64,000 nucleotides of DNA, taken from NCBI GenBank assembly GCA_002989075.1, contig PSQN01000002.1, forward strand, positions 1,909,311-1,973,310. Reading direction: 5' to 3'. The translations under genes were made by a program, and so were the position numbers. This stretch comes from Arthonia radiata. Lineage: Eukaryota > Ascomycota > Arthoniomycetes > Arthoniales > Arthoniaceae. Below, one piece after another: positions 6,257-42,862 of the stretch; position 1 is the first letter of the stretch; the number at the start of each line of letters is the position of its first letter. The notes beneath the pieces were generated by a model, which saw nothing but the letters and a program-made list of their open reading frames with translations, was not told where the DNA came from and ran no database searches.

Positions 6257-7033
6257 ATGGCCAATTCAGAGCGTCCAACAGCTAAAGCCACGACGGAGGG
6301 TGCTCAATCGTCCTCGAGCTTTGATATGGACGATGTATCATATAGAAGTGGTAGTCTGAAATATCTAGACGTGATATCATCTCATCCGTCGTCTTCGTCT
6401 CGTCTTTTCGAGGCAACTTGGCAGGGACGGCAGGCTCGAAGACCAGTTCTTACAGCGACGTGTGACTCTTGGAAAGCAACGTGTGGACTGCCAGACATTG
6501 TCACGCACTGCAGTGGTAAGCTCAACAACGTCGACAGTTTTCCTTCTGCAGCTTCTGAGGCGAGAGCCATCATTGAAGACAGCTGGCAACGACTCGCAAA
6601 ATCATTTTCAAGATGAAGACTTGCTGGGACGACTGCTGCATCACTAACCTTGATTAGAAAACCTGAGCACTAGTACAGTTACAGTAGCAGTAGTAGTAGC
6701 CGTACGTTGTCGGCATTACCACAATGTTCAGCGGCAAGCAAGTGGCGAGCTGGTGTTGCCTTCGAAGAGCTGGCCTAGAATTTGACAATGCCGGTGCAAC
6801 TGCTCTTCAGAATGACTTGTGCTTACTTCATGTGCCTAGATCGTGTCTTGACGTCCTATGCAATGTTTCGGGGAAGGTGGTGGAACTCTCTTGAGACGCG
6901 TCCGCAACGCGTCGAAGCCCACCACTTCTCATCCCCAACGACGCGTTCCTGCAGCAAGCACGCGCCTTCCAACACAAACATAAACACTTCTGCCGTCATG
7001 GCAACTATCGCGTCGTCACCGACTGCTGAATAA
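6257..7033 (+). CDS. Hypothetical small protein with an introner-like intron
   Basis: I do not recognise this product. Exons 6257-6515 and 6840-7033 join in phase 1 to give 150 residues without a stop. The predicted intron, 6516-6839, matches the ABC-transporter intron at 12951-13258 along most of its length and has GTAAGC and CTAG ends. The protein is Ser/Thr/Arg-rich with no signal peptide, membrane segment or known domain. The evidence that it is a gene is mainly that the intron-like element is flanked by frames that join correctly. It could instead be a decayed gene or a non-coding transcript. Confidence 0.3.
6516..6839 (+). repeat. Introner-like element, long subfamily, copy 1
   Basis: A 324-bp sequence beginning GTAAGC and ending TGCCTAG. 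It aligns along most of its length with the ABC intron at 12951-13258. Shared blocks include TTTCCTTCT, CTTGATT(A/G)GAA, GCAAGCAGTGGCGAGCTGG with small changes, and TTGACTTGTGCT near the 3' end. A polypyrimidine stretch is weak but present. The two copies lie 6 kb apart in unrelated contexts. Confidence 0.7.
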
Positions 7034-9787
7034 TCCTTCCCCGCCATTCTTTATCTTGCTGCTTCGCACGCTTTCTTTTCTCCTCCCAAACAACATTCCC
7101 TTCATCGACGACCCTCCCCCACCGCCATCAACCATCAACTTCTCTCGGTTTTCATCATGGCAAGCATCTTTGAGCTCTTAATAGAGCATTCAAGTACATA
7201 CAATGTGAGTCTCGACTACGTTGTCGTCGCCGGTGCCGCGGATTGCTGACGGCAAGTTTTCACCCATCATCAGATTTACTTTTTCCGCCTCCCTTACTTA
7301 CCTTTTCTCAGCTGCACCTATTGCGAGCGCCTTTCAACAGCTCAATGGCATCAACAGCACACATACAAGCCACCAAGAGGTGGTGATCTCTGCTGACGTC
7401 AGCACCGCCGTCGCTTGAGCACTTCAAGGTTGAGTGCCCCCTACCCTTCCGCCTTGCTTAAGCAGTCTGCTGACCTTCATTATTGACCCATCACACACGA
7501 GTCCGCTGAGGGTGACCCCGACCAGACTTCGTACCTCATCGTGGTGCCGGGTGAACTCGATGTGCTTTGTTTGGCCCCCTACGGCTCTGGGGTGATGCCC
7601 CAATAAGCCCAAGGGTCGAGGGTGATTCCTCGCGAGCAAAAACATCATCGAGGCTGAAGTGAAGTCATTCGAACGCATGCACGCCGCTCCCTGGCCATCC
7701 GGGATGCACTATGGCGGGGACTTGATGGAACTTTCATGAAGTCATTTGAACGCAGACACGCCGCTCCCTGGCTATCCGGGATGCACTATGGCGGGAGATG
7801 CATCAGCCAAGAAACGAGGTCACAAACAGAGCCCGGTGTGCGGAGCTTGACAAATGTAGGAAACCCCAGTGCCGCTCGGTCGACCCCGATGCCCCTGCCG
7901 GACTTGCGCGTCTTTGGACATGAGTGGTTGGGCACTCACAGGCTGATGTATTCTCTGGTGGGCTTCCGTTGGGCTCTTGCACTCTGGGTTCGTCTGCTCA
8001 TTGTGGGTTGTTGGCTTTTTTCCAGGTATATGCTGCCTCCCTTCTTCGGGTTGGTACAGACTGCTTGAAACGACCTCTTCGGGTACCGGCTCCTTGCTCG
8101 CAAGGTTGCCAACTTCCGGCAACTGATTTGTGTAACCTTCCGGTGGGATCAATGAAGTTTGGGGCTCTATTGGCGGCGTGGTAGCCCGGGTTCCTTGGGT
8201 ATATCCTTAGAAATGGACCGAAAAAGCTCTGGCATTCAGGGGGAAGTATGAGCGAACCGACTCTCCAGTGAGCATTAGAGAGCGCTGCCCCTGTCCGTCT
8301 GGCGGGATCACTCGTGGGTCCGGCTGTTGACATTGGGTCACAAAAGACGGGCAGGCACCGAGAAGACTCCAACCTCTGCGCGGTCTCGGTAAGGATAGTG
8401 GATGAATCTCAGGAGTTGCTATGCTGACATCCAGTTCTTAGGTGACTAGTACTGCCTTTCAGGCGGGAAGCTAAGGAGCATTGTCGTTCATGTGGGCACT
8501 CAAGGTATTGCTTGAGCGATGCGGTACGCGCCCGTCGGTGAGTTGCTGCTGGCTTGTTCTACCATCTGTTCACTGACTACGCTGTAGGTTCATGATTTCA
8601 CCAGTCGATCTACTCTTACATGTTGGGAAAAGTGGGCGGTGGGGATATAAGTGAGTCAAGGCTGCAAAAGGGAGGGCTTAGGGACAAAAGCCAGGAGCCG
8701 AGCCAAGGGAGGAGTTGTGGAGGTGTCAATAGTGGAAGAGAGAGATGAGCGTATACAGGTAGTACGGAGGTGAAGACGTGAAGAATGAATGTGGTCCTTC
8801 AATGAGAGTCTTGGCATGATGATTTTCGCCACTGCCATATGCATATCTGGCTATGTCGGCACTTTATTCTCCATACGCAGCAAGGCAGCAAGCAGCACAC
8901 CAGTAGCTACGCCAACCTCTATGCACACCGCCGCCACTTTTGGAGATGGCCTGCCGTGCACGCTGTCGAAGAAAACATAAAAGGGTAGTTGCTGTGTGAG
9001 ATTGCGGCGTAAATACGAGCAAAAGGCGGTGACTAAGCAGGCATACATAACAAGGTAGGTGAGGCTGAGAGGGGAGGAAGAATGGTTGGGATTTGCAGGA
9101 GAGTGCGAGTGCCGTCCTTCTGGAAAGCGCGAGCACAAGCCCGCCCGGAAACGGACGGCACCCGAGCACCCGGTCCCACCATCTGGAATTTGTAAGCTGC
9201 CCCAGCCATATCACCCATTCACGCTGAGTCTTGACCATTGTTGGCTCCCTTGCCTGGGCGTAGGTAATACTACGATCGTTCTGGCGTGACTCATAGTCTG
9301 AGAACGGACTGCGAGGGCGATCTTACACTGCTGACAACCTCCGTGCGGGCACCAAGAACGCAGTCAAAGGCGCCGACGAGGTTAACGGAATAAAGACAGA
9401 CAACTCCGACGCGGCGACCAATAAGCTTCTCGCACGAGCCTGACTGTGGCCCAAGGTTCGCCGAGACCGCCGTTTTGGGACTGATCATTTCTAAGATTCT
9501 CCTACTTACTCACGCGTCATCCGCCCGACTTCAAGGTCGCTTATTCGCGATAAGGTGCTCTTCTCAACGGCCATCTCCTGTTCTTTTCCTCGCCTGCACC
9601 TTTGCTGGAGTGTCAACTCTCCTCTCCGGCCACATCTGCTCTACCTTGAATTCCATCTCTTTCAGTGTTCTTTCCTCAGCTTCCCAAATTACCGTCATTG
9701 AACTGTCGCCAAGCACTATATCCGTTCTGCCGACGTCAACATTGAGTCCGAGGTCGGAAGAGCTGCGTGCTCCTGTAATACTACACC
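7034..9787. other. Long intergenic stretch without a supported gene
   Basis: No frame here carries a recognisable protein. A pyrimidine-rich run at about 7050-7150 precedes an ATG at 7157 that opens 16 codons and then meets GTGAGT. This looks like the start of a spliced transcript, but no convincing second exon follows. An imperfect 77-bp tandem duplication begins at 7661. The remainder (8150-9480) has only short frames on both strands. It may hold a long non-coding RNA or the far upstream region of the ABC transporter. Confidence 0.4.
7661..7798. repeat. Imperfect tandem duplication, 77-bp period
   Basis: The block starting GAAGTCATTCGAACGCATGC at 7661 recurs from 7738 with few substitutions. 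Both copies contain CGCCGCTCCCTGGC and ATCCGGGATGCACTATGG. The second copy ends by about 7798. Confidence 0.85.
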
Positions 9788-12700
9788 ATGTGGTCAGGGT
9801 CACCAGCATACGAGCGCAAGGAGACTAGTGATAGAGATCCAAATCCCCTTCACAACCCTGATCAACACCTGGAAACGCTGACCGAGGACAATGCTGCAGG
9901 CGTCCTCGCAGACGGTACTGATGGCCGAAAGAGAGAGTCTGGAATGTGGGGGGAACGGGACGTAGGAGGACCTGTAAATGAGGAACAAGCGAAGGTAATA
10001 CTACTGATGGCACATGAAGTCTAGTAATCTAAAACAAAAGCAGGAGGATTATGAGACGCTGCGGCGAGAATTGACCGAACTTTCTAAAACTCAATCCGGC
10101 CAATCGCTCAAATCGAAGAAGTCTTCAAAATCACTCAAGACCCGTAAGTCCTCAACGGCACTGGCAAAGGTCAGTAGCAGAAATAGTGGCCGAGCTTGGC
10201 CTCAGCGAACTCACACTCAGGGTACGATTCTCAGCAAAGAAACGACTGGCGACAATGAATGGGGCGAAGAGCGTGAGGAGGAGGATTTCGACCTAAACGA
10301 CTTCATGCGAGAAGGTCATTTCGAGAAGCGCATCGAAGGTCATTCTGCCAAACGCATTGGAGTTGTGTTCAAGCACTTGACCGTCAAAGGCGTCGGCTCG
10401 ACCGCCACTTTCGTGAAGACACTCCCTGATGCCGTCTTGGGCACTTTTGGGCCCGACCTCTATCAGCTTCTGTCTCGATTTCTCCCCTTTCTCAGATTCG
10501 GCCATAGCGCCGAGCGCACCCTCCTTAACGACTTCACGGGCGTTGTTCGAGACGGTGAAATGCTCTTAGTACTTGGACGTCCTGGTGCCGGATGCTCAAC
10601 TTTTCTCAAAGCCGTGGCCAACGACAGAAGTCATTACGCTGGAGTTTTGGGTGACGTGAGCTACGGCGGCATCCCTGCCGACAAGCAGAAGAAGCTGTAC
10701 CGTGGCGAAGTCAACTATAACCCAGAGGATGATGTGCACATGCCGGATCTAAACGTGTGGCAGACCTTTGTATTTGCTTTGATCAACAAAACCAAAAAGC
10801 GTGACTCTGGTGAAATCCCCACCACGGCTAGCGCACTAATGCGGATGTTTGGAATCTCACACACGAAATACACGAAGGTCGGTAATGAGTATGTGCGCGG
10901 CATCTCTGGTGGTGAGCGCAAGCGCGTTTCCATCGCAGAAACCCTTGCCACCAAGAGCACTGTCCTCTGTTGGGATAACTCCACCCGTGGGCTCGATGCC
11001 AGCACCGCCCTCGACTACGCAAAGTCGCTTCGGATCATGACCGACATCAGCAACAAGGCTACGCTCACCACCTTGTACCAAGCTGGTGAAGGTATCTACC
11101 AGCAAATGGACAAGGTGTTGGTCATAGATGCTGGTCGGTGTATCTTTCAAGGTCCTGCCAGTGAAGCCCGTCAATACTTCGTCGACCTTGGGTTCTACGC
11201 GCCCGACAGACAGACCACTGCCGACTTTCTCACTGCCTGCACTGACCCCAATGAGCGCCGCTTCCGTGATGGCTTCCAGCACCGAGCGCCAAAAACCGCT
11301 GCGGAGCTCGAAGCCGCTTACAAGAAGAGTGAACATTATCAGAGGGTCTTGCGAGATGTCGAAGGCTATGAGAAAGAGCTGCAAGAGAACAATTATGGGG
11401 TGGCACAAGAGTTTGAAGAGGCCGTCCAGCAAGGCAAGAGCCATAGAACCGTCTCCAAGAAGGTAAGTTCACCGAGTCTCCGCTTTAGCCTCTGTGGTAT
11501 CTTGCTGCCCAGTTCAAAACTCATTGGCCGACTTTCGTGAAAGATGCTGCACACAGAGCCTGAAAATCTGGCGACGGTGCTACCCAGAACGCATTATGCT
11601 AACACTTGAACCCGCAGTCTCCATACACCATTAGCTTCCCAAGACAAGTCCTCGCCTGCGCTCGACGTGAGTTCTGGCTTCTGGCTGGCGACTTGACGAC
11701 ACTCTATACCAAGGCATTCATCATCGTTTCCAATGGTTTGATCGTCGGCTCGCTCTTCTACGGCGAATCGCTTGACTCGACTGGCGCCTTCTCTCGTGGC
11801 GGCGCCCTCTTCTTCGCTATTCTTTTCCTCGGTTGGTTGCAACTCACGGAACTCATGAAGGCTGTCACCGGACGCAACGTCGTCGCACGGCAGCATGAGT
11901 ACGCCTTGTACCGGCCGTCAGCCGTCACCCTCGCCCGTGTGCTTGTCGATTTCCCGGTACTTCTCCCGCAGGTCGTTGTCTTTGCCATCATCATGTACTT
12001 CATGTGCAACCTGGACATCGACGTGTCGAAGTTTTTCATCTACACGCTTTTCGTCTACACTACAACGATGATGCTCACGGCTTTGTACCGCATGTTCGCT
12101 TCACTCTCGCCAGCCATCGATGACGCCGTACGATTCTCAGGCATTTCGCTCAATCTGCTCATCATTTACACCGGTTATGTTATTCCAAAGCCGCAGCTCA
12201 TCAGCGAATATATCTGGTTCGGATGGATATACTACATCAACCCTTTGGCATACTCATACGAGGCTGTTCAAGCTAACGAGTTTGCTGGTCGCGATATTCC
12301 ATGCGCGCCATCGCAACTCGTTCCGCAGCAAGTCCCTGGTGGACCACCTGTGGATCCAGCACATCAAGGCTGTACACTGTCTGGTTCAGGCATTGACCAG
12401 ACTGTCATCCCAGGCTCCGAATACATTAACTCCAACTACACGTATACGCGTAGCCACCTCTGGAGGAACTTTGGCGTTCTCATCGCGTACACAGTACTCT
12501 ACATTGTCGTCACGATGTTTGCCACACAGGTGTTCAACTTTGCCAAGGAAGGCGGCGGTGCGCTTGTTTTCGTAAAGAACAAGCGATCAAAGGCCGCAGT
12601 GAAGACCAAAGCGCCTCCCCCAGCTGACGCCGAGAAGGGTGGCCAAATTGAAGACAGCAGTGCATCGAGCGAGAGGACAGAGACCGACATGGAGAAGGGC

Positions 12701-15656
12701 GGCATGGCCGAAGAAAAAGCTCTGGCGCAGATCTCCAACAGCCAGCAAATCTTCACGTGGGAGAACGTCAACTATAGCGTCCCCTATCAAGGCGGCCAAC
12801 GCCAGCTCCTTAACAATGTCGATGGCTACTGCAAACCAGGCGTCATGGTCGCGCTCATGGGCGCGTCTGGGGCGGGGAAGACGACGCTGCTCAACACTCT
12901 TGCGCAGCGTCAATTTATGGGCATTGTCAGTGGTGACATGCTGGTTGACGGTAAGTTCGACAGCGTCCATACCTTTCCTTCTATAGCCTTGGCGGCGGCC
13001 CCCAGCATTCGAATAGCCGGCAATGACTTGCAGATTTAACTTCGACAACAAGAGTTGCTACCGTTGCTGCTACATCACCAGCCTTGATTGGAAGACCTGC
13101 GTCTTAGTACAACAGCAGGCGCACGTTGCCTTTATTGCTATGGAGTTTAGCGCCTAGCAAGCAGCGAGCTGGCGTTAGCCCGGAAGAGCTGGTTCAGAAT
13201 CTGAGAATGCTGGTGTGACTGCTCTTTAGATTGACTTGTGCTGACTTTTTGTTTCTAGGCAAACCTCTCAGCGCAACGTTTCAACGATCGACTGGTTTCT
13301 GTGAGCAGATGGATCTTCACGACGGCACCGCAACGATTCGCGAGGCTCTCGAGTTTTCAGCTATTCTCCGCCAAGATCGACATGTCCCGCGCCAAGACAA
13401 GATTGCCTATGTGGACACGGTCATTGACCTTCTCGAGCTTACCGAGATCCAAGACGCTGTCGTGAGCTGCTTGGGCGTTGAACAGCGCAAGCGCTTGACC
13501 ATCGGTGTTGAGCTTGCTGCCAAACCTTCCCTTTTGCTGTTCCTTGATGAGCCTACAAGTGGTCTTGATAGTCAATCTGCGTACTCAATCATTCGATTTT
13601 TGAAGAAGCTCGCGGCGGCGGGTCAAGCCATCCTTTGTACTATCCACCAACCCAGCTCAATCCTGATCCAACAGTTTGACATGATTCTGGCCTTGAACCC
13701 AGGCGGCAACACCTTCTATTTCGGCCCTGTCGGTGAAGAAGGTTCAGCCGTGATCAAGTACTTCGCAGATCGAGGATTCCACTGCCCACCCAACAAGAAC
13801 GTGGCCGAGTTCCTGCTGCAACTCGCCGCAAAAAGCCGACGACGAGAAGATGGTACCAAGATTGACTGGAACGAGGAGTGGAGAGAGTCTGAAAACGCCA
13901 AGGCCCTCAAGGAAGAAATTCAGCGCATCAAATCGACCAGGTCCAAAGAGCCCGAGCCCGATCTTGGCACTCAGCACGAATACGCAGCACCCATCTGGAC
14001 ACAAACGACTGAGGTAGGTCTTAGAGCATCTCCATACTCCTCTCTATTGCTTCAAAACGTTTGTCAAACAGCTAGCGCGCCGGCGTCGTTCTACAGAATG
14101 TTGTTTGAGAGTTGAAGACACTTCAGAAGGGGCTGTACTGATATGTACCCCCTAGGTAAGCCTTCTAGCATCCACGAATTTCGTCCTGTTGCTTCAAAAC
14201 TATCATCAGGTAGTCGAAGCGCTGGCGGCGTCTCAGCATACTTTATTTCAAACCTGAACGAACTTCGGTAGAGGCTGTGCCGGGTCGCTTTGAAGGTCAC
14301 AGAAGGAAAGGTGTGGATGCTGCGGAACTTCTAAAGTCTTAGAGCATCCACACCTTCCCTTTTGTTACCTCAAACCCCATGCCGCCAGCTAGCGCGCCGG
14401 CGTTATCTCAAAATACTTTCCCGGGAACAGCAAATGAACCTCAGAACGTGCTGTGCTGACACCCTGTTTTTAGGTAAATCCTAGAGCATCCACATATTCC
14501 TTTCTGTTGACCCAAATTCAATGTCTGGCAGCTAGCGCGCCGGCGTTGCCTCGGAATACCCTGCTTCGAAGCGGAACAAACATTGGAACGGGCTGTGCTG
14601 ACATCTTGTTTCCAGGTCACAAAGCGCATTTTCCGGCAATACTGGCGAGACCCTCCATATTACTATGGAAAGCTCTTCAGTGCCGTTATTGTCGGTATCT
14701 TCAATGGCTTCACCTTCTGGCGCCTGGGTAACTCCACAGTGGACATGCAGAACCGTATGTTCTCATCCTTCTTGGTTTTGACGATTCCGCCGACGGTTGT
14801 CAACGCTGTGGTGCCGAAATTCTTCCAGAATATGATGTTGTGGATGGCTCGAGAAAACCCCTCGCGCATTTACGGCTGGTTCGCTTTCACTACGGCCCAA
14901 GTCGTAGGTGAGATTCCAATCGCAATCTTCAGCAGTGTCCTCTACTGGGTATTGTGGTACTGGCCGGCAATGTCAGCACAGCGCCAGGATACCGAGTCGT
15001 CAACGGCAGGTTATGTGTTCTTCATGACGATGCTGTTCTTCCTCTTCATGTCGAGCTGGGGCCAGTGGATTACGGCGTTTGCGCCCAACTTTACGGTCAT
15101 CTCGAACGTCCTGCCCTTCTTCTTCGTCATGTTCTCGCTCTTCAACGGCGTCATCCGACCATACTCAGGACTGCCGGTCTTCTGGAAATACTGGATGTAC
15201 TACGTCAATCCGAGTACATGGTGGATCGGCGGGGTGCTCTCAGCAGTACTTCACAACGTGCCGGTGATTTGCGATCAGAACGAGACGGCCAAATTCACAC
15301 CACCGCCTGGTCAGACCTGTGATGGGTACGCAGGTGCTTTTGCCAACGCCACCCCGGGCTCTCTGAGGACGAGCACCATCGATGGACGGACTGTCTGCGA
15401 ATACTGCCAGTTGGGCAGTGGCGACGACTACTTGTCGCAGCTCAACATCAGCGCCGACGACAAGTGGAGAGACTTTGGCATCTTCTTCGCCTTTGTCATC
15501 AGCAACTACGCGCTGGTGTATTTCTTCATCTACACTTGCAGAATCAAGCACTGGGGCTTTGGAATGGGTCACTTGTTCGGGTTTCTGGGCAAGATTGCAG
15601 ACTTGATCCTAGCCCCGTTCAAGAAATTGACAGCGAGCCGCAAGGCATCTTCGTGA
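9788..15656 (+). CDS. PDR-type (ABCG) ABC transporter
   Basis: Five exons, 9788-9994, 10044-11462, 11618-12950, 13259-14013 and 14616-15656, give about 1584 residues. The order is the reverse NBD-TMD-NBD-TMD of pleiotropic drug resistance pumps. NBD1 has the fungal Walker A GRPGAGCST, signature VRGISGGERKRVSIAE and Walker B VLCWDNSTRGLDAS. NBD2 has Walker A MGASGAGKTTLLNTL, a degenerate signature (LGVEQRKRLTIGVEL) and Walker B LLLFLDEPTSGLDS; this asymmetry is normal for the family. Two six-helix membrane domains follow the NBDs, with a large loop before the last helix. Such plasma-membrane pumps export xenobiotics or metabolites; the substrate cannot be read from sequence. Introns 3 and 4 are introner-derived (308 and 602 bp). 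The first acceptor could be at 10040 or 10043. Confidence 0.92.
12951..13258 (+). repeat. Introner-like element, long subfamily, copy 2 (ABC intron 3)
   Basis: This is the third intron of the ABC transporter, 308 bp, with GTAAGT donor, TGTGCTGAC branch region, TTTTTGTTTCTAG acceptor and phase 1 insertion inside NBD2. It aligns over most of its length with 6516-6839. Its 3' third also resembles the short subfamily (AGCGAGCTGGCGTT versus AGCGCGCCGGCGTT, then GTGCTGAC). The other ordinary introns in the window are 47-172 bp and unrelated. Confidence 0.8.
14014..14615 (+). repeat. Tandem stack of four introner-like units forming one 602-bp intron (ABC intron 4)
   Basis: Four head-to-tail copies of a ~142-bp unit fill this phase 0 intron: 14014-14155 (142), 14156-14295 (140), about 14332-14473 (142) and 14474-14615 (142). 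Between units 2 and 3 sit 36 extra bases that are an inverted copy of the start of unit 3. Units 1, 3 and 4 share GCTAGCGCGCCGGCGT; unit 2 has a decayed form. Units open with forms like GTAAATCCTAGAGCATCC and close with forms like GGGCTGTGCTGACATCTTG then TTTCCAG. The outer borders restore TTE|VTKRIFRQYW in the transporter. Junctions at 14155/14156 and 14473/14474 read CTAG|GTAAG and TTAG|GTAAA. Confidence 0.88.
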
Positions 15657-20520: not shown

Positions 20521-22293
20521 ATGGCTACGACTGTCATGAGCCAGCCCTCCATAGACCCTACCTCGCACACAAGCAAGCATACCTTGCAGTTCAGTGACGC
20601 TCCGACTCGTCGCCGAGAGCCGGACAGACGCTATTACAGCTTGCGATGTACGACTGCCCCCATCCGATCTACATCACGCGTTACATGAACTTTGGGAAAG
20701 AGGGACTGACATTCATTGCAAATAGATAATCATAAGCTAAGAGGATCGTCAAACAAAGGCCGTAAAAGCACTTTGAATGTCCCCACGTCGTCAGCCTCCG
20801 GGTCACGGCCGAGCGTCAACATTGTAGAAGATGGTCACGGAGTGGACAAAGCAAACACGACAACATTCAGCTATGAGGGAGCTAAACTGGACTATCCAGC
20901 ATCAACCATACCATTCGCGCTCGTACATGACTCTACTTCGAACACTTTCACGCTGCAGAGGTTAGCGGCCTCCTACGCTTTCAATCTTACCGGAGACAGC
21001 GTGCGCGCAGATGCTATTCACGATGGGGATACATTCGATAAGACCGAGAAGAGGAGTAGCGAGACGACCGTCAACGGTAACATACACACGACCTTAGGCA
21101 GTGCAGCCACATCACCCGCTCACTCTATCAACCTCGAGGTCAGCGGCGCAGAGAGCGAGCAAGACGATGTGGAAGGAAGCAACCCCTATGATTGGCGCCA
21201 CTACCTCAAAGGTTTGCCTACCTCATCCGCCAGCTCTGACGACAAGCCCAAGCAGAACGGCGGCAGCCCAGCCCAGCCTGTTGCCGCGGCACCCATCTCA
21301 CGCATCTCCTCGCCTCTGGCACACTCCCGCCATCCCTCGAAGACCAATGTCTCTCCTTCCTCACCAGCAATTCGAGCAGTGCCATCATCAAGCAATGCAC
21401 CGAAGCAGCCACCACCGCCTCCGAAACGCCGCGAACCGACCAACCCGCTGCGCGCACCCGCCAGCAACAAAAGACCTCGCAACGCTTCCGCCGTTAGCGC
21501 TCCTTCCTCTCAGTCACGACCCCTCACTCCCGCCATCAACGTCGAAACGCCCACGCCAACGACGACATCTACGCCTCATTTCAAGACCCAGCATCGTCCG
21601 CACTCTTACTCCGCGCCACAACGCCCTCAGACGGATCCCAACGAGCTCATCATAGAAGGTGAGGATGAACATCCCTCCGCCCGCCGCGCAACTGGAACTG
21701 CAACGCCATCATACATGACACCCTCCGGTGGGCGTCCCATGTCGCTTCGTGAGGCAGCATCAAGAGGCGCAAGCCCGCTCATGCCGCCGCGCTCGCATCC
21801 AGCCAACGGTCACTCACGGTCAGGCAGCGGGTTCAGCGGCCCGGGCACCAAAGGCTTCAATGGAGGTGATGACGACATCATTGATTTCGGCGATGGCGGC
21901 GATGATGGCACTCAGAGCCGACGAAGCAACGGCGATGTCGAAACGGACCTGGAGCTAGGCAGTCCGGCTTACGCTGCTAGTCTGGATCTGCCCATGCAGA
22001 AGGGCGCGAAGGACGGCAAGAGTCCAGATGCAATCGCCACGAGCCCTGCGTACGCATGCAGCTCGGACAATGAGCGAGTTGAAGATGATGAGGATGCTCA
22101 AGGGGACGGGAGAGGCACCAGAAGCGGCAGTATTGACGAGCTGGAGAGCGCACTGCAGGATGCGTTGGGCGGTAGTGGTGATGGCGTTGAGGAGGTGGTT
22201 GAGGATGAGGCGCAAGACATTGGTGATGCGCTTGCCGAGGCGTTGGCGGAAGCGGGAGGCGCGGAAGGAGACGAGGAGAGTGAAGAAGAGTGA
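20521..22293 (+). CDS. EAF-family RNA polymerase II elongation factor
   Basis: Exons 20521-20647 and 20726-22293 join in phase 1 over a 78-bp intron to give 564 residues. The N-terminal EAF fold is seen in LQFSDAPTRRREPDRRYYS, continuing across the intron into YNHKLRG, then DYPASTIPFALVHDSTSNTF and LQRLAASYAFNLTGD. EAF proteins bind ELL and stimulate transcript elongation. After about residue 150 the chain is Ser/Pro-rich and disordered, with a polyproline KQPPPPPKRREP. The last 120 residues are strongly acidic (Asp/Glu-rich), resembling a transactivation tail. The exon 1 motif makes the first ATG secure. Confidence 0.88.
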
Positions 22294-22387
22294 GCAAAGT
22301 CTGTGAGATGTAGGAGCAAAGCGGTCTCTTTCGTTGCGCGTAAGATTCCTATTCACTTCTCGCCAGCTTCTCACTCAAGGTCCTCGC

Positions 22388-23887
22388 TCAGGTACCGTGT
22401 AATCGCGCGAATGTTGTCCGCTCCGCTACCAGACGGCCCTCGTGGAGCACTATCCGATCATGCTCTGCATCATAGACTACCCTTGCTACAGAGGGCGGCA
22501 GCCTGTCGTGGCCAACGCTACCATACAAGACGAGATCAGCTATATCGCCCACCTCCAAGCTCAGAGATCTGTGTCGCAGACCCATCGCAGTCTTGGCTCT
22601 GGTCGAAACGGCCTCGTACAGAGTCTTGCAGTTCTGTGTCGTAGCAGCTTGGTAGACAAGCATGCCCAAGCTTGCGAGTTGCAACGGATCACAACTCCCA
22701 TGTGGTGTGAAGGCATTACCGACGTTGTTAATGGACATTGCGCAATTCAGCCCGTACTGTTCGATCAAATTTGGAACTTGAAGTGTGCCTCGGGGACGGT
22801 CGATAGCATGCTGCGTGTCGTCTTGAGGTCGTCCCATCATGTAGAGGTCAGAAGTTGGTAGGCCAACGAAGGAAACTGGAAGATCATTGGATTGAATCAA
22901 CTGCGCCAGGCGGGTCCATTCGTCATCTGAGATCAATGCCAACCTCGTGCAGTGGCCAAGGCTGACGTTGATGAGGAGCTCGGGCGGTTGTATCTGCGCA
23001 TGGACTTAGCAACGAACGCAAGAAATCGATTGCTCGTGTGACGTCTAGGCCCAGGACGACTCCATGAAAGGTACAAAACTTACGCTCTTGGTAGGCCATC
23101 TAGCCTGCAGTAGCGCCTGCACAACATAGCCTGTCAATGGGTTAATCCCATCGTCAAGATTGTAATCGAGATGAAAGTCCAGATGCTTGTGGCCTGATAA
23201 AGCCTGATCGATTGTCCAGCGCACATTTTCTTTGCTGGCATCTCGGTCTTGCTCGACGTAGGGTGTACTTCCTATTGCCTCGACCTCGTGAATGTCGAGC
23301 GCCTGGGTCAGTAGATCTCTCCGTATACGTCCGACATCGTTTGGCTCGAACAAGGCAAGCTGTGCATAGGCACAGATGCGTATGAAGCAAAGGTTCGTAA
23401 ACTCCCTTCTGAGTACTATCGCAGCCTCGATACCTCGCATCTCCACTATCTCGTCAACCTCGACGAAGACTCTCATCGCCGTCACCCCAGCGGCGACGCT
23501 CTCCTCAATCAGCCGACGTCCTCTTCGAATCAGATCTTCGCCATTGAAATAGCTCTTGGCCTCACCGGTCAGCTCCATCGCCTCAGCAAAGCCGCCGTCT
23601 TTGATTTGGTAGTCTTTGAACTTTTCATCTTGCAGGATGAAACACTTGTCTAGGTGGATGTGCGCGTGACATAGGGATGGCAACAGCAATCTGCTCCCCG
23701 CATCAAGCACACGAGGTTCTGCGTCAATGCTCGTGTGTTCTTCTGGATCCTTGTGCTGGCCAATATTACTGATCTTACCATCCTTCAATTCAACGTCGAA
23801 GAGGGAAAGCTCGTCGTCACCGTGTAATCGACATCCTCTTATAAGCTCGATCTCCGCGGGCTGCGCGTCGCTGCGGTCGATATTCAT
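22388..23887 (-). CDS. CodA-like amidohydrolase (cytosine deaminase superfamily)
   Basis: Exons 23887-23084 and 22993-22388 (intron 90 bp, phase 0) give 469 residues. The metal-binding opening motif HAHIHLDKC, the central HLDFHLDYNLDD with further metal His residues, LINVSLGHCTR, and NNVGNAFTPHG near the C terminus fit metal-dependent hydrolases of the cytosine deaminase-like branch. An N-terminal beta strand region (IRGCRLHGDDE) and the C-terminal LSLEVGDIADLVLYG form the usual composite beta sandwich. The substrate may be a cyclic amidine, pyrimidine or related compound and cannot be set from sequence. I start at the MNIDRSD methionine; an in-frame ATG at 23944 would add 19 residues. Confidence 0.85.
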
Positions 23888-24354
23888 TACGGTGATCTTA
23901 CGGGAAAGTGAGATGAATCCGCTCTTGTAGAGAGAAAGACCCAAAAAGCGAGGAGGATCGAGACAGGAACAACAGGTGGGACCTTGGAAGGCTCGAAGAG
24001 ATCTGTCGTGCCAACCACTATGTCATGCGAGCACGCACACCTACCTGCATGAGCATTCAGCACGAGCACCCAGGATTACGCCGTGATTTTGAAAGCGAAA
24101 ATCCACGTTTGTTGGCCTTTTCTCTGAGCGCGATTCGGTGATTCCATAAGACGTCGACCCCGCGCTTGAGTTGAGGTGCATACTTGAAGGCTGAAGCTCA
24201 GCTCATCTGCATCTCATCTTCTGCATTCCTCATCACTTCCTCTCGCTTGCTCCTTCCAACTCCACCATGTAGCACCCTCGTTTTGACCTGGACTGTGAAT
24301 CGAGGTGAGCGACGCTCAGCGGCGAGCAGAAGGTGCCAAGCCACGCGAAGAAAG
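23888..24354. promoter_or_regulatory. Divergent promoter region, amidohydrolase / SWIB protein
   Basis: This 467-base gap separates divergent genes. No ORF of note, RNA or repeat was seen. Confidence 0.4.
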
Positions 24355-26073
24355 ATGCAACCCTTTCGGAACTACCCGGGGCAGGGCCCTCCGCCGCAGA
24401 TGCGCAAAGGTGAGTCTTCGTTATTTAGAAAGATCCTTTTCGATCATCGCAGTATCACTTTGCGGGCAATCACGAGTCTGATCCTCGCGCCTGCGTCACA
24501 AAGATGACGCACAGACGCATGATAAGCCGAGCTGACTTGGAGGCCACTGTCGGCCGCTCAGGTGTTCCCAATCCACAACAGCCCCGCGGCCCTCCTCATC
24601 ACGAGCACTACGAGCAAGCATATCGAGAGCGCGCTCAGATGGAGATGGCCAAACGTCGCGCCGCACGACCGACCGATCGCAGCCTTCCAGACGGCATTGA
24701 TAGGCTAGTCGAGACAGTGGCCGCAGGCAATTACAATCAATTGCGCGCAATCGAACAACAACTTGACGCCGTTATGATGCGCAAGCGCATAGACATCCAA
24801 GATTCGATACAGACGAGTCCACCTGGCAAAGGAACATTGAGGCTGTGGGTCTCGAATACGGTGGAGAACCAGCCCTGGCAGCAGAGCAACGTGATGGATC
24901 ACGATGCCTTCGACTTTTCCAGCAATGTGGAAGCAAGCTTCAAGGTCAAAATCGAGGGAAAGCTTCTGAGCAGTCGTAACCAAGACACACCGAGTAATGA
25001 ACGGAATGTAGAAGAATCAAAAGACGACAATGAAGACGGCGCAGATGGCGAGCCAGCAACGAAGCGGCCTCGACTGTCTTCTGATGTGCCCAGCAAGAAG
25101 CTCTCGGGCTTCTTCAAGGCTATCACCATCGACTTTGATCGCGCATCAGCACTTCAGCCTGACAACTATAACCAGATCAAATGGGATAAGGCCTCTGCCA
25201 CAGCGTCGAACGATCCACGAGCCTCAGAGTTCGACTGTCTCGAATTCCAACGCAAGGGCGACGAGAACATCAATGTCACCATCAAGTTGACACGCGACGA
25301 GCCAAACCCAAAGATGCAACTTGCGCCGGCGTTGGCTGAGCTGCTAGGTACCGATCTAGCCGACCGTAAGACGGTCCTCATGGGCTTGTGGGAGTATATA
25401 AAAGTCGCAAAGCTATTGATAGAAGGCGGAAATGGCCGGCACGTTCAGTGCGACCAGCGCCTGAAAGACGTAAGCCAACAATTTCTTCGTCTACGACTTC
25501 AATATTTCGCTTGCTGACGCTTCTTAGGCACTCAACTGTGGCGACTCCTTCTATTTCCCAGAATTGGCGAACTTGGCCAATGCCGTCATGCGTGACGCGC
25601 CGCCGCTGTCAGTGAACTATACCATCCGTGTCGACAAAGACTTCCACACCGGTAATAAGCTAGCGCCGCCGACGGTATACGACGTTCCAGTCACCGTGGA
25701 GAATCCTACCAAGGATCAGATGCACTCGGCCATCAATCCGCGTGCACACGCAGCCGGTCTGCAGAAGATTGCTGATATGGACGATGAGCTGGCCATTGTC
25801 ATCCAGCATATGAATCAAACCAAAGCCAAGCACGGCTTCTTCACATCGATGAGCAAGGACCCAGCCAATTTCATCAAGCGCTGGACGAGCAGTCAGAAGC
25901 GCGATATGGATGTCATACTGGGCGCTGGTGCTTGGGGTGAAGAAGACTGGCAGGGTGCTGAGTGGCGGGAGGGTGGTTTGAGTGGTCCGTGGGGCACTGA
26001 CGAGGCATGGGAAGGAGTGGGTTCGTTCCTGATCAAACAAGATGCGAGCCGTCAACGGGCTACTGCGACTTAG
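24355..26073 (+). CDS. SWIB-domain chromatin remodelling subunit (Snf12/Rsc6, SMARCD family)
   Basis: Exons 24355-24409, 24562-25469 and 25528-26073 give 502 residues. The first acceptor at 24561 restores QMRKGVPNPQQPRGPP and has a CTGAC branch upstream. SMARCD proteins are core subunits of SWI/SNF or RSC remodellers. Seen are an N-terminal Pro/Gln-rich segment, a helical LPDGIDRLVETVAAGNYNQL stretch, the conserved TLRLWVSNTVENQPW, a central beta region (FFKAITIDFDR), and the SWIB core: LAPALAELLGTDLADRKTVL, MGLWEYIKVAKLL, then CDQRLKDALNCGDSFYF across intron 2. The C terminus carries a helix with KDPANFIKRWTSSQKRD, also typical. Whether it serves SWI/SNF, RSC or both cannot be told from one gene. 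Confidence 0.9.
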
Positions 26074-26590
26074 CGCGTCCGTGATGGATTTGAGAAGAAG
26101 ATGGTATTCGTTAGCGAGGCGTTGGTCTGGAAGCATCGGTTCCAAGTATTACGGTGCATTAACAATACATTCTGTGTTCTCACAACGTTTTCCTGGTGAA
26201 AATATTTTCTGCGCAATTCGGCTAACGCTCAGCGCTTATACCGGACGCTCTGCGACAGGAACTGTTGAACGTAATTGAGGGCACTGTGTACATAACCCTA
26301 ACCCGTCACCCCACATTCACCTCACATGGCGCACGGTCTAGCACGACGAGCTAGAACCCTCACAGACTGCGGACTACCGAGGACCGGACACTTGTAGTTA
26401 TTGGCATCCCAAGCTTTCATGGCTTCAATTACGTTGCCTCACCTGATGCTGTAGTGTTCACATCGCGCGTCACTACCTGCATCTGCATCGCCGCGCGCTC
26501 AAAGGTCACCAAAATGCACTGAGGCGACCGCATCAGGCTTCCGACTATTCCTCCTCCGACTATTCCTCCTCACTTATCGATCCTTTCACC
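26074..26590. other. Intergenic, with a 15-bp tandem repeat in the TLC gene leader
   Basis: No gene seen. CCGACTATTCCTCCT occurs twice in tandem at 26541-26570, just before the TLC-protein ATG. A single CCCTAACCC at 26296-26304 is too short to call telomeric. Confidence 0.5.
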
Positions 26591-27804
26591 ATGCTGGACC
26601 CATTCCCAATACCAGTTTCAGAAACGCTCTCCAGGATCGTCACACATTTTGCCGACTCCGCCGCGCTTTCTGTACTTCCTCTGCATATTCACGAGATCTT
26701 GATCGCCGCCGCATTCTACCATGTCGTCTGCTCATACGTCTCTCCGCCGCTCTCGCGCGCTCTTTTCCCCAAGGTCTATCCCAACTTCGACGCGCGAACG
26801 AAACTCAATTGGGACGTTCATGTCGTCTCTCTTGTCCAATCGGTCACAATCAACGTCCTCGCGTTATGGGTGATGATCTGTGATGACCAGCGCAATGCGA
26901 TGGACTGGCGAGAGCGAGTGTTTGGATACGACGGCGCGTTGGGTATGATCGCGGCGCTTGCCTGTGGCTACTTTCTCTGGGACTTTGGAATCACTCTGCG
27001 CTACGCGAGCTGGTTTGGACCAGGTATGCTAGCGCATGCGGCGAGTGCGCTTGCGGTGTACGGTTTTGGATTCGTACGTCGATCAATCCTATCTGTGTCG
27101 GAGGAGAGCTCTGCTGTGGGTGCGATGATTGCTGATCCATTGATTAGCGGCCCGTCATTATGTATTACGCGCCCGTCTTCATCCTCTTCGAGCTCTCGTC
27201 CCCCTTCCTCAACTTCCATTGGTTTTTCGATAAGCTGGGCATGACAGGTTCTAAAGCACAATTGTACAATGGCATACTCCTCATGAGCAGCTTTGCCGGC
27301 AGCCGCCTGATCTGGGGCAGTTATAATTGCTTCAAGGTCTTTCCAGACATGTACAAAGCTATCCAATATCAGAAGACCTTGGAAGGTCAGTCCTGGTTTG
27401 CAGAGGGTGTGGCGAATGCAACAGCACAAGCCGCCGTGAAGGGCGCTATGAATCTAGACGGGTTCAGCCACGACGTAGACGTGGCCAAACGTATGGCACC
27501 AAAACCACTGGGCGAGGCGTACGCCATGATATACGTGGTCAGCTACGTGCTGCTCATGCTTTTGAATATCTATTGGTTCGGCAAGATGGTTGAGACAATT
27601 AGAGCACGGTTCAAACCACCCTTTGGGACGAAGGAAACCACAAGCAAGGGAGCGAAGCCCGAGGCGAAGGGAAGTGTGGGACCTGTGGTTGGAGCAGATC
27701 CGAATGGCACGCGAGGTCGGAAAACCTTGAGTGAGAATGGGCAGACAATCGTGGAACTAGAAGAGACAGAGGTTAAGCAGAGGAAGCCTAGACGGAAGGC
27801 TTAA
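26591..27804 (+). CDS. TLC-domain (TRAM-LAG1-CLN8) multi-pass membrane protein
   Basis: Exons 26591-27073 and 27148-27804 (intron 74 bp, phase 0) give 379 residues. Several hydrophobic spans are visible: HEILIAAAFYHVVCSYV, VHVVSLVQSVTINVLALWV, LGMIAALACGYFLWDFGIT, MLAHAASALAVYGFGF, PVIMYYAPVFILFELSSPF, and a final AMIYVVSYVLLMLLNIYWF. The DFGI motif in the middle, an H in the next span, and the ELSSPFLNFHWFFDK block fit TLC proteins of the TLCD4/TMEM56 type rather than ceramide synthases, which have an HD pair. The C-terminal 70 residues are Lys-rich and cytosolic. The probable role is in ER or plasma membrane lipid handling. Confidence 0.85.
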
Positions 27805-28085
27805 AGACCAAGTAGGTCCTACATCTAACAATTCATATGAAATTCGCAAGAGCTTAGCAAAGACATGCGCAAACATGCACGTCGAGCACATGATCTTTTG
27901 GAAACAATGATCCAGACGATTACGCACAAAAGCAGAACATGGAGTTCGTCGAGTATTTGGTGGGCAAACAGTAACAATAATGCATAAACCCTGCCATAAT
28001 GGAGGCCTACCAGCGCTCAATTAGGAAGTACGTGACTTATTTTCGGCTTATTCAGAGCGCGTCTCGACGCAGCTGCACTTTGAAC

Positions 28086-29657
28086 ATGAGCGTTCTGTCG
28101 TACATTTCCGGTGGCGGTCGCAAGGTTCTAACAGCTCCAGCTCGATCAATAAGATGCTGTTGCTTCCGACGCCCGTACTCTCGACCCACCTTTGCTCCAA
28201 AACCTGTCCTCGATCTCAAACACATCGCTCAAAACTCCGCCCTGTATGAGCAGAATTGCGTAGAGCGCAACTATGGAAAATGTGCGAGCTACGCGGCGCG
28301 CATTGCTGGTCTTCGCAATGAAAATGTAAGAATAGAGAAAGAGCTGCGCGGACCGAGAGAGAAATTCAAACAGCTGCAGCAAGAAATTCGTAGATACCAG
28401 GAGAACTGTGAGGGCGGTCAAGGCGGGGATGTCCAAGGGCCGTCTCTTCTCGAGCGCGCTAGGGAAAAGGCGAAGCAACTCAAGGATGACTTGGACGCCT
28501 GTTCAGGACAGATCAAGCAGAATCTGGAGGAAATCGAGGCTTTAGCGCTGGCGCTTCCAAACCTCAGCAGTGTGCACACACCCACTGGAACGCAGGCGAG
28601 AGTTCTTGATGTCGTTCAGAACAGTGATCCTACTCAACTCGAAGGCGTGACAAAAAGTCATGTTGACATTGGAGCACAGCTTGGTGTACTCAACTTCACT
28701 CGAGCCGCGACGAGCAGTGGGTGGGGGTGGTACTATCTCACGCATGAGGGCGCTCTTTTAGAGCAAGCCCTCGTGCAGTATGCCCTATTGCAGCTCATCA
28801 AGCGTGGATGGCAGATTGTGTCACCACCCTCGATAGTGTATTCGCATATTGCCGATGCTTGTGGCTTCCAACCCCGAGATGAGAACGGCGAGCAGCAGGT
28901 GTATGCTATAGAGCAGACGCTAGACGCCGAGCACAACCCTGAACGGATTTCGCACGTACTCACAGGCACCTCTGAGATCTCACTTGCAGCCATGCAAGCC
29001 AATTGCAACATTGATATGCGCGATCTACCATTGAAGACAGCCGCAGTCACTCGCTGTTACCGCGCCGAGGCCGGCGCTCGGGGCACAAATACCAAAGGCC
29101 TGTATCGAGTCCATGAATTCACCAAGGTGGAAATGTTCGCTTGGACCATGCCAGGGCGGCACTTCGACCCTGCGACAGGCGCCTTCGACACTTCAGCAAG
29201 CACAACACCACAGAGCGACGATGTGTTCAACGAAATGCTTGACATACAGCGGCAGACATTGATCGACCTAGGTCTCAATTTTCAGATCCTAGAGATGCCA
29301 ACGACAGACCTCGGCGCAAGTGCAACCAGGAAAATCGACATGGAGGCCTTCTTCCCATCTCGCCATGAGCGCAACGGAGGCTGGGGTGAGGTCACTTCGA
29401 CATCAATCTGCACAGACTATCAAACCCGCAGACTACGGACAAAATACGGTCGCGAGGGGTCAGGAAACGTTGGGTGGCCGTGGACCGTAAACGGGACCGC
29501 CATGGCTGTACCGCGCATTCTCGCCGCTATTCTCGAGTGCAATTGGGACGAGGAAAATAAGTACTTGAACATTCCCAACGCTTTGAAGCCATGGATGCAC
29601 GGCATAGAGACTGTCAAGGCGCGGAAGAGCAGCCCGCCTCTACGTGTCTTCGCGTGA
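28086..29657 (+). CDS. Mitochondrial seryl-tRNA synthetase
   Basis: A single exon of 523 residues from this ATG; an in-frame ATG at 27999 would add 29. It charges tRNA-Ser. Class II features are seen: an N-terminal coiled-coil arm (RIAGLRNENVRIEKELRG and following Lys/Glu-rich helices), LTHEGALLEQALVQYALL, motif 2 RCYRAEAGARGTNTKGLYR with HEFTKVEMF, and motif 3 NGTAMAVPRILAAILE. The early segment has Arg/Ser and few acidic residues (TAPARSIRCCCFRRPYSRP), which reads as a mitochondrial targeting peptide. A Dia4-like mitochondrial assignment rests on this presequence. Confidence 0.9.
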   Translation: MSVLSYISGGGRKVLTAPARSIRCCCFRRPYSRPTFAPKPVLDLKHIAQNSALYEQNCVERNYGKCASYAARIAGLRNENVRIEKELRGPREKFKQLQQEIRRYQENCEGGQGGDVQGPSLLERAREKAKQLKDDLDACSGQIKQNLEEIEALALALPNLSSVHTPTGTQARVLDVVQNSDPTQLEGVTKSHVDIGAQLGVLNFTRAATSSGWGWYYLTHEGALLEQALVQYALLQLIKRGWQIVSPPSIVYSHIADACGFQPRDENGEQQVYAIEQTLDAEHNPERISHVLTGTSEISLAAMQANCNIDMRDLPLKTAAVTRCYRAEAGARGTNTKGLYRVHEFTKVEMFAWTMPGRHFDPATGAFDTSASTTPQSDDVFNEMLDIQRQTLIDLGLNFQILEMPTTDLGASATRKIDMEAFFPSRHERNGGWGEVTSTSICTDYQTRRLRTKYGREGSGNVGWPWTVNGTAMAVPRILAAILECNWDEENKYLNIPNALKPWMHGIETVKARKSSPPLRVFA

Positions 29658-30957: not shown

Positions 30958-31559
30958 GATGTCACAGCCGTTTGCGGTCTGCAATTCTACACTTACTACT
31001 CAGCTGGTCTCATGTGATCGGCCTAGTGTTACGATGCCGTATTATTTCTAGTAAATTTCAATCAATCGGTAGTGCTCTTTTTGTAGTATGTCCTTCTCCT
31101 GCTCTTGCTTCTTTCCACTACCCTTTGTCTTGTAACGTTTCTGGCGACTTTGCACTCAGCCAGGTTTCACAGCATCCGCACATCCTATGTTGTTTCTGTG
31201 CAAGCAATGCTCGGCAGCAGGTGCGCTGATTCGTCAGGAGACACTTCGTTTGAAGCATGAATGCTCTTCAGCGAAGGCTGTGCTGATATTTCATGTTTTG
31301 GACAAGATCGCTTGGACCAAGCACCACCGCCTCGTAGCAACAGCAAGCAAGCTAGCCAGCTCACTGTAGCGGCATGCTTGATCATCTTGCAGTTCGCTTG
31401 CGCATAGCTGGATATTGAGCGTACTGCGACATGTGGCACGTTAGAAGCGGACTAGGAGTTTCACGTACCATGAAGTGGGGGGCACACTTTGAATGGAGAA
31501 GTACATGCAGTGCCTAACGACAAGTCCACCATTTTGTATAACAATAGTCGATGCCTATC
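30958..31559. other. Convergent intergenic region holding an introner copy
   Basis: It lies between the 3' ends of two convergent genes. It contains the introner-like copy at 31164-31306 and no other recognised feature. Confidence 0.5.
31164..31306 (+). repeat. Orphan introner-like element, short subfamily
   Basis: This 143-bp sequence matches the short units of ABC intron 4. It opens GTTTCACAGCATCCGCAC, has CGGCAGCAGGTGCGCTG where others have GGCAGCTAGCGCGCCGGCG, then CTTCGTTTGAAGCATGAA, GGCTGTGCTGATATTTCATG and ends near GGACAAG. It keeps the family length. No protein-coding exons are evident on either side, so it is either an intron in a 3' UTR or non-coding RNA, or a relic. Confidence 0.65.
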
Positions 31560-40837: not shown

Positions 40838-42862
40838 ATGACAGAAATGGCGACGCCTTTCGTTGTATTCATGCTTTTCGCGGCCACGTGTCATGCTGTC
40901 ACTCGGACACCTACACCTCCGATGGGATGGAACTCATACAATTACTACAGCTGCTCTATAAATGAGACGGTCGATAATCTCGCTATCGCATTGACAAGCA
41001 GCATTCGCTGATTCTCAAATAGATCATGCGTGAGAATGCACAAGGGCTGACTGACCTAGGCTTTGCAGCACTGGGTAAGCCGAAGAGTATCCGCCCCTAA
41101 CATTTTGTGCTCTCGGAGCTGTCACCAGGCAGCAAGCGCGCCGGCGTTGTCGCATAACGGCTTGCTTGAACCTGAACTCCAGAAGGGGCTGTGTTGACGT
41201 CTTGTTTCTAGGTTACGACATCGTCACCACCGACTGTGGATGGCCATCCCGAGACCGTACTGCCAATGGACAGATTACGTGGGATGCCGCGCTCTTCCCT
41301 GCTGGGCTTCCAGCACTGAGCGACTTCATACATGGCCTAGGACTGAAGTTCGGTGTTTACTCAGGGGGCGGGATTTGGGAATGTGATGTTGTGGGTGGGA
41401 CCGACCACCGTCAAGCGTCATTAAGTATGAAAGAAGGCAAAAAAATCAGCAGATTTGCTCTGACCAAAGGCAGCATATGAGCAAAGAGACGCCGCGACAT
41501 TCGCTTCCTGGGGCATGGACGCCTTGAAGTATGACAATTGCTGGGCTACCAGTGACGTCTTTGTCAACTACAACCAGAATCAACCTGATCCCGCGCCACG
41601 GTTCGCGGCCATGTCTGATGCTTTGGATGGTCTTGATCGCCCAGTGATATACTCAATTTGCGAGTGGGGTGTGGGCTACAATCTGGGTATGTCCCGAGCC
41701 TCTACCGATGCTGGGAAACAGCCTGATTCGCGCCTTTTGAGGCCAAAATCCGGGCATTGTCTGCCGCAAATCTCTCCCACAGAGCATCAAAACCGGGCCA
41801 TTGCTTTGCGGCTTGATACTGATGCGTGCAATCACAGGCATTTGGGCCGCTGCGGGAGGTGACACCTGGCGCATTTCGAACGACATCGCTCGCGGATGGG
41901 ATTCCATATACCGCATTGTCAACCAGGTAGTGCCTTACGTCAAGTATACCGAACCGGGACAATTTCCAGACATGGACATGCTCACTATCGGGCTTAGAGC
42001 ACTGAGCAACGAAGAAGAACGGTTTGAATTCACAATGTGGGCTATCCACAAGTCGCCGCTGATCATTGGAGCGCCTATGAACAAGGACCTCACTCCTGCT
42101 GCATCGCTCGACATCCTGTCTAACAAGGACGTTATCGCCATCAGCCAAGACTCGCTTGCGGAGCAGGCATCTCTCGTTCGCCGCTACACCGAGGAAGAGT
42201 ACGACGTCTGGGCTGGGAATTTGAGCGAGTCTCGGAAGGTCGTCGCTGTCACGAATTGGTCAAATGATACTAATGCGGTCGCCATCGATCTGGCCGCGAT
42301 ACTAGGAGTAGCCTCAGTGGGCACGGTCAAAGACATCTGGCATGCTGTGGACTTAGACACCAGCTCTTTGCGTCTGGAAATGTCGTTGGCAGGCCATGAA
42401 GCCCGCTTGCTTGTCATCTCTGACTTCACCTACTCTTCGCCACAGCCTGCTGGTACCTACTACAGCGTAGCACAGGCTACACTCTCCGGAAGAGCGAATG
42501 TGGTCTCATGCGGCGCCGGCTGCCCGCCGGTTGGTCAAAAGGTTCAGGACCTTGTAAATGGTTCTTCAGCGAGCTTTGGAGACGTCGTCAGCTCAGCGAG
42601 TGGGACCCGACTTCTTGGGGTTGACTTCATCAACTACGATATAGCCTTGCCGACTGGCACCAATGTGCGCAATATATCTTTGGCTGTCAATGGCGGCGTG
42701 CCAAAGCGGTGGGCTTTTCCAATCAGCGGAGGCAATTGGACTGACACGGGGCGATTGAACATAGAAGTCGACGGGTTTAACGCTGACTCGTTCAATACGC
42801 TTATACTTTCCACAGCGAAAGACGAGCTCGGGCCGGATCTCGTAGGATTTGAGGTATTGTGA
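40838..42862 (+). CDS. Secreted GH27 alpha-galactosidase
   Basis: Exons 40838-40969, 41023-41074, 41212-41424, 41474-41686 and 41838-42862 give 544 residues. It releases terminal alpha-galactose from galactosides such as raffinose or galactomannan. The signal peptide is MATPFVVFMLFAATCHA. GH27 blocks follow: TPPMGWNSYNYYSC, ALGYDIVTTDCGW, GLKFGVYSGGG, SWGMDALKYDNCW with the nucleophile Asp in KYDNC, RPVIYSICEWG, and DTWRISNDI with the acid/base Asp. HKSPLIIGAPM ends the barrel; a beta-sandwich and a C-terminal carbohydrate-binding-like domain follow (about residues 360-544). Intron 2 (41075-41211) is an introner-like element. Confidence 0.93.
41075..41211 (+). repeat. Introner-like element, short subfamily (alpha-galactosidase intron 2)
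   Basis: A 137-bp phase 1 intron with GTAAGC donor, GTGTTGACG branch region and CTTGTTTCTAG acceptor. It matches the ABC intron 4 units: GAGTATCCGCC for GAGCATCCACA, CAGCAAGCGCGCCGGCGTTG, GCTTGAACCTGAACTCCAG and AAGGGGCTGTGTTGAC. Neighbouring introns of the same gene (53, 49 and 151 bp) are unrelated. Confidence 0.88.

Follow-up and report, generated by a model that had tools for sequence, protein, structure and literature searches.

According to the portions of the literature cited here, introner-like elements (ILEs) of the Mycosphaerellaceae are similar introns dispersed in unrelated genes, with several families per genome, and paired ILEs of one gene lie 145–626 bp apart with exon between them (PMC4457414). 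A stable predicted secondary structure has been cited for fungal ILEs (PMC8469720), and ascomycete introner families have been described as lacking both target-site duplications (TSDs) and terminal inverted repeats (TIRs) (PMC9860276). Several cases of nested or merged introners in Micromonas led the authors to infer mobility at the stage of the unspliced transcript (PMC3879977), while in the [D1,2] stwintrons of Hypoxylaceae and Xylariaceae an inner intron splits the donor of the outer one between G1 and U2 (PMC12403724, PMC8469720, PMC9024468). Here we describe a compound intron in Arthonia radiata contig PSQN01000002.1, within a 64,000-nt stretch (the window) in which it interrupts a predicted PDR-type ABC transporter gene and consists of four related introner-like units set head to tail (U1 to U4). 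A literature search of open-licence papers turned up no fungus for which head-to-tail stacking of introners has been reported.

The borders of the intron were assessed by excision over positions 13700–14900 in five forms (all units removed, all kept, and U1, U1–U2 or U1–U3 removed). A stop-free frame was obtained in one of these, the loss of all 602 nt; full retention and the three partly spliced forms had stops in all frames. The joined exons aligned without a gap at the QTTE|VTKRIFRQYW junction with 7p03, whose entry names a pleiotropic ABC efflux transporter, presumably Pdr5, and with 9iuk (CDR1), in both alignments shown. Because full removal leaves the frame open and the protein alignment is gapless, the outer borders proposed in the earlier note (14014 and 14615) appear to be right and the predicted 602-nt intron to be real, and the joined exon sequence places the entire stack outside the inferred protein. 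An Rfam search of the window gave 0 matches.

All four units matched the family described below, as had been claimed, and the account of their anatomy needed amending in three respects (Table 1). The proposed lengths of 142, 140, 142 and 142 bp hold for U1, U2 and U4 but cannot all be correct, since they add up to 566 and not 602; U3 with its 5′ extension measures 178 nt (14296–14473), and the 36 nt that had been omitted include most of a 28-nt inverted arm complementary to U3's own 5′ part (inverted repeat 14294–14321/14343–14370, 89%). The AG|GT sequence expected at every inner border is intact at two of three, U1|U2 (CCCTAG|GTAAGC) and U3|U4 (TTTTTAG|GTAAAT), whereas the middle join is decayed: the AG|GT at 14294–14297 is not conserved, a sister composite on C14 having ACGGT. 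A donor, branch site and acceptor of its own is true of U4, and of U1 with a branch site that is only branch-like, but not of U2, which has lost its branch site (CTGAC) and normal acceptor, nor of U3, in which TAAAGTC stands in place of a GT donor. Since each thus lacks what the other retains, U2 and U3 are regarded as the 5′ and 3′ halves of one fused composite. The fold-back tail between them resembles the start of a second dispersed intron, type B, present in the same gene (87% over 30 nt to 12953–12982), and comparable fold-back tails occur on C14 and C5. U1 had its closest copy elsewhere in the sampled DNA (see below) at 71%, and U2 was 87–88% identical to C14:581197.

Table 1. Coordinates of the compound intron, its units and the flanking features (window positions)
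Feature	Position	Strand	Description
Exon used in joining	11618–12950		PDR-type ABC transporter gene
Type B intron	12951..13258	+	308 nt, same gene, dispersed; borders read by eye
Exon upstream of stack	13259..14013	+	ends QTTE
Whole stacked intron	14014..14615	+	602 nt, phase 0; within PDR-type ABC transporter gene
U1	14014..14155	+	family A unit, 142 nt; GTAGGT ... ACTGAT (branch-like) ... CCCTAG
U2	14156..14295	+	family A unit, 140 nt; model 1–125 only; donor GTAAGC intact
Fold-back tail between U2 and U3	14294..14330	-	reverse complement of family 5′ end
U3 core	14331..14473	+	family A unit, model 3–142; branch TGCTGAC, acceptor TTTTTAG
U4	14474..14615	+	family A unit, 142 nt; GTAAAT ... 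TGCTGAC ... TTCCAG
Exon downstream of stack	14616..15656	+	starts VTKRIFRQYW, up to stop codon

Searches of the genome (33.5 Mb in 16 contigs, with copy totals being lower bounds) gave 44 matches for U4, 18 for U1 and 3 for U2, self included. As 43 of the 44 U4 matches had E < 1e-8, chance is excluded, and the units are, as the earlier note had supposed, members of a family of intron-like units with many copies, here termed family A. The family consensus had at least 50 genome matches (40 scored of 154 first-look candidates) and is about 142 nt long, reading GTAAGT ... GCTGTGCTGAC ... CTAG; in an alignment of 31 copies picked for score and full length, GT and AG were invariant and CTGAC near-invariant. 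Members in unrelated genes are alike over the whole intron, from one splice site to the other, as expected of introners in the wide sense and as in the Mycosphaerellaceae, where the similar introns are likewise dispersed and form several families; the genes with stacks carry ABC transporter, ankyrin, MFS, GST, DUF1776, polyketide synthase, GH28 and NCA2 domains. Type B had 14 genome matches (self included, some partial), and both of its halves were recovered in 4 of 9 B copies with the model from the 31 A copies alone, so that it is plausible, though not proven, that type B is an old fused dimer of family A. Further family matches were seen in the window, namely two additional A matches (41075–41211 and 31163–31292), a short match to the family 3′ end (8386–8441, model 87–142) and a degenerate type B-like match in two parts (6516–6839; model 1–97, weak, and 12–142), the last of which is perhaps a further introner-derived intron.

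No TIRs were seen by eye in the 142-nt consensus and no TSD rule emerged (see below), in keeping with descriptions of other fungal ILEs and unlike introners derived from miniature inverted-repeat transposable elements, which have both; the U2-type variant with its fold-back is the exception and the only one with inverted ends. The Arthonia units differ from fungal ILEs in their folding. Ten single units were no more stable than shuffled sequences (z −1.96 to +1.37) and the consensus fold contained no compensatory pairs, so a conserved RNA fold of the unit was rejected. The whole stack gave a z of −6.28 (20 shuffles), which is ascribed mainly to the U2–U3 fold-back.

Stacks were then counted in a sample of 57 genomic pieces (~245 kb including the window) chosen for holding family matches. 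The family model gave 133 matches in 91 same-strand chains, of which 27 held more than one match; after setting aside five lone B copies and three doubtful chains (C1:1597191, C16:1503448 and C5:745921), and counting the window once instead of twice, 18 clear stacks remained, window included. A second four-unit stack lies at C10:1678234–1678795 and has three AG|GT borders (last three bases read by eye), and A and B units are mixed in stacks on C1, C9, C12, C13, C15 and at C16:967222–968240. This last region of about 1 kb holds seven consecutive family matches, B copy included, with several decayed borders and unclear ends. All 20 zero-gap borders read AG|GT, the other joins of those stacks being decayed; the border at C15:1381393 reads AG|TTAAGT. 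Genome-wide, the border pattern had 42 matches against 3 with a reversed control, although some of the 42 were by eye an exon followed by a single unit. Close same-strand neighbours (≤75 nt) were found for 18 of the 39 consensus-search copies lying in sampled DNA (49 copies counted, 10 of them outside it, one weak inverted hit dropped). That a unit can sit at the exact border of another, as first suggested for the window, is thus a recurrent feature of this genome. In this the Arthonia units, which abut at zero distance, differ from the exon-separated ILE pairs of the Mycosphaerellaceae, and their stacks, recurrent, at exact borders and of up to four or more units, differ from the Micromonas cases.

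Opposite-strand close pairs numbered six, four of them fold-back joins and two at C5, and none was zero-gap. At C5:745773–746249 family copies stand side by side in opposite orientations, and within this region a U2-type piece with fold-back (C5:746071–746249) has ends resembling inverted repeats (GTAAGTCC/GTATGTTCC, by eye), which in principle could give a donor on either strand.

Of the 72 chains examined among the 91, 61 had a GT and an AG that could be used close to where the model placed their ends. When these 61 were removed exactly, the frame stayed open in 39, compared with 22–29 after shifted removal and 3 with no removal. Exons were joined across 14 of the 18 stacks, and 10 of the joined products were run against Pfam. 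In six, a domain spans the junction (Ank_2, MFS_1, DUF1776, Glyco_hydro_28, NCA2 and ABC2_membrane), the ABC2_membrane match crossing it by only 5 residues. To judge from reading frames and protein matches, family copies may be spliced.

The relationship between neighbours was examined in 27 pairs with gaps ≤60 nt among 112 units, two doubtful chains included. Mean identity between neighbours was 0.594 compared with 0.595 for permuted partners (p 0.53); in no pair did a unit match its neighbour best, the highest rank reached being 2 of 111, and among the units examined nearest relatives lay elsewhere. On a tree, 0 of 27 neighbour pairs were sisters, with path lengths like those of shuffled pairs (paths as short arose in 255 of 500 shuffles). 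With the best pair among the 112 units at an identity of 0.91, the family is unsaturated and a recent tandem duplication should be visible. Of the neighbouring pairs, the closest was U3–U4 of the window, at 73% and in a clade of 5 among 112 leaves. Because neighbours are no more alike than permuted partners and never sisters, the units appear to have been inserted independently, in line with the proposal in the earlier note that a new unit can insert at the border of an old one. The U2–U3 composite recurs at C14:581197–581515 (halves 87% and 86%), where no unit stands upstream and a different one, 67% identical to U4, stands downstream. A paralogous gene as source of the shared block was rejected, as only chance-size matches were found outside the intron between the window gene and the C14 host gene, whose exons have no meaningful similarity. 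Since the composite has different neighbours at the two loci, units appear to have joined one by one and the fused dimer to have been copied. The 5′ unit scored higher in 14 of 21 pairs (p 0.19), which does not decide which end receives new units.

Taken together, these data make it reasonably probable that the compound intron grew from a dispersed introner-like unit of about 142 nt by insertion at borders. The spliceosome would reverse-splice excised copies, in sense orientation, into transcripts not yet spliced, at splice borders already present, and a DNA copy of the product would then recombine into the gene. AG|GT would be left by such an event, so that the site stays usable; inner splice sites may decay afterwards, and a fused compound intron could itself be copied, as for U2–U3 at two loci and perhaps the 308-nt type B. 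Random insertion cannot explain the exact borders, since 300 copies placed at random in 33.5 Mb would give only ~0.001 of them. Reverse splicing at borders already present in unspliced transcripts seems the most likely route.

Several points weigh against this account. No scar is peculiar to reverse splicing, which means that a DNA-level route would also fit, and the sense-only order at borders is perhaps the work of selection, because an antisense unit would remain in the mRNA. The U2–U3 fold-back and the inverted C5 copies are unexplained by plain reverse splicing. In the open-frame test, 19 of the 91 chains were skipped (score <45 or flanks missing) and 11 of the 72 examined had no usable GT/AG, the shifted-removal control was noisy, and the window stack was counted as two chains. 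Four of the 18 stacks had unclear ends, no Pfam domain was found at the junction in four of the 10 joined stacks searched, no convincing frame was found at C16:957864 and C15:1381249 (6 and 16 residues before the junction), and the frame at C14:581197 is short, with only 18 residues.

A DNA transposon-like introner that prefers G|G or AG|GT genic sites, recreates the site at either end with every insertion, and so stacks without any part for splicing, is unlikely. The flanking bases are biased as it would predict (G in 82% of 55 upstream positions and in 61% of 46 downstream first bases), and the inverted ends of the U2-type variant would suit it. However, of the 35 loci at which both ends are clear only 2 had AG|..|GT, so that an AGGT TSD was rejected, the consensus lacks TIRs, and even with an assumed one million target sites 300 copies would be expected to produce ~0.05 borders.

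A more specific form of the favoured border insertion has the spliceosome reinserting copies at donor or acceptor borders, with introns that accrete, pass through recursively spliceable stacks, fuse while their inner sites decay and, as with U2–U3 and the 308-nt type B, spread as longer introners; this sequence of events is advanced tentatively, as somewhat less probable than not. In animals, recursive splicing takes place at zero-length exons, juxtaposed AG|GT acceptor-donor sites in very long introns. The same motif is present at U1|U2 and U3|U4, here as predicted sites that the stacking of introners has created within a 602-nt fungal intron. The whole stack has to be excised, and of the two modes first envisaged for it, a single outer excision and stepwise excision, both may occur, the single one being sufficient. 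Solely stepwise removal, unit by unit with the AG|GT borders as recursive splice sites, is unlikely: it would account for the AG|GT kept at all 20 zero-gap borders, U1|U2 and U3|U4 among them, but U2|U3 and several other joins are decayed and thus unusable unit by unit. Furthermore, intact CTGAC was rarer at inner than at outer branch sites (12 of 23 vs 46 of 58, p 0.027 uncorrected; units ≥60 bits, excluding rows gapped within the motif, a count to be used with care), a weak test which suggests that inner branch sites are less needed. A corresponding comparison of inner GT/AG constraint was confounded by truncated alignment ends and set aside. The stack is not a stwintron in the strict [D1,2] sense, a relation the earlier note had raised. 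Both are compound U2-type introns multiplying in a fungal genome, with inverted ends in some, at least in the stwintron sources cited, but the Arthonia borders are AG|GT between whole units, without exception at zero gap, or are fused without inner sites.

It is also improbable that the stacks were captured in one step, several excised intron RNAs or their cDNAs being strung together and integrated as one block, for example at a double-strand break. Neighbours that are unrelated members with exact ends would be expected from such an event, inverted pieces exist, and a break-repair route has been proposed for fungal stwintrons (PMC12403724, in the part cited). Against this, the 20 zero-gap borders are same-strand (matches having been chained by strand) and none of the opposite-strand close pairs is zero-gap, while capture should also yield inverted joins, though selection may remove them, and the U2–U3 composite is flanked differently in the two places where it occurs. 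An array made from one introner by local tandem duplication or unequal crossing-over, which would fit the head-to-tail order, the near-constant spacing and the likeness of U3 to U4, is very improbable and was rejected, given neighbour identity at the permuted level, the lack of sister pairs and the mixing of A and B units in C1:2356911–2357505, C12:2020429–2020879 and C9:2189757–2190188.

The earlier note had turned to the Dothideomycetes for known introners, yet this is not the closest class to judge from two window proteins. A seryl-tRNA synthetase-like protein (27981–29654) had its best named match, at 65%, in a metagenome-assembled genome (MAG) of Coniocarpon cinnabarinum, a member of the Arthoniomycetes, with further named fungi, which we take to be Dothideomycetes, near 52% and the top match overall at 69%; the protein at 20710–22290 was 56% identical to the next-numbered Coniocarpon protein. 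These matches point to Arthoniomycetes as the nearest class, and the nearest named relative thus falls outside the Mycosphaerellaceae in which ILEs were described. The two proteins (20710–29654) match the adjacent-numbered MAG proteins Q9159_003150 and Q9159_003151, which hints at conserved gene order with Coniocarpon.

The origin of new spliceosomal introns is an open question, and whether ascomycete introners move by an RNA or a DNA route is disputed, since they are said to lack the scars that transposons usually leave. Reverse splicing directed to splice sites should place a unit exactly at the edge of an older intron and beside a neighbour to which it is unrelated, an outcome not expected of random insertion into DNA. 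A single genome with many stacks, from a lineage near Arthoniomycetes, makes the mechanism testable and, if the account given here is true, its stacks would show one way in which short introns become long compound ones.
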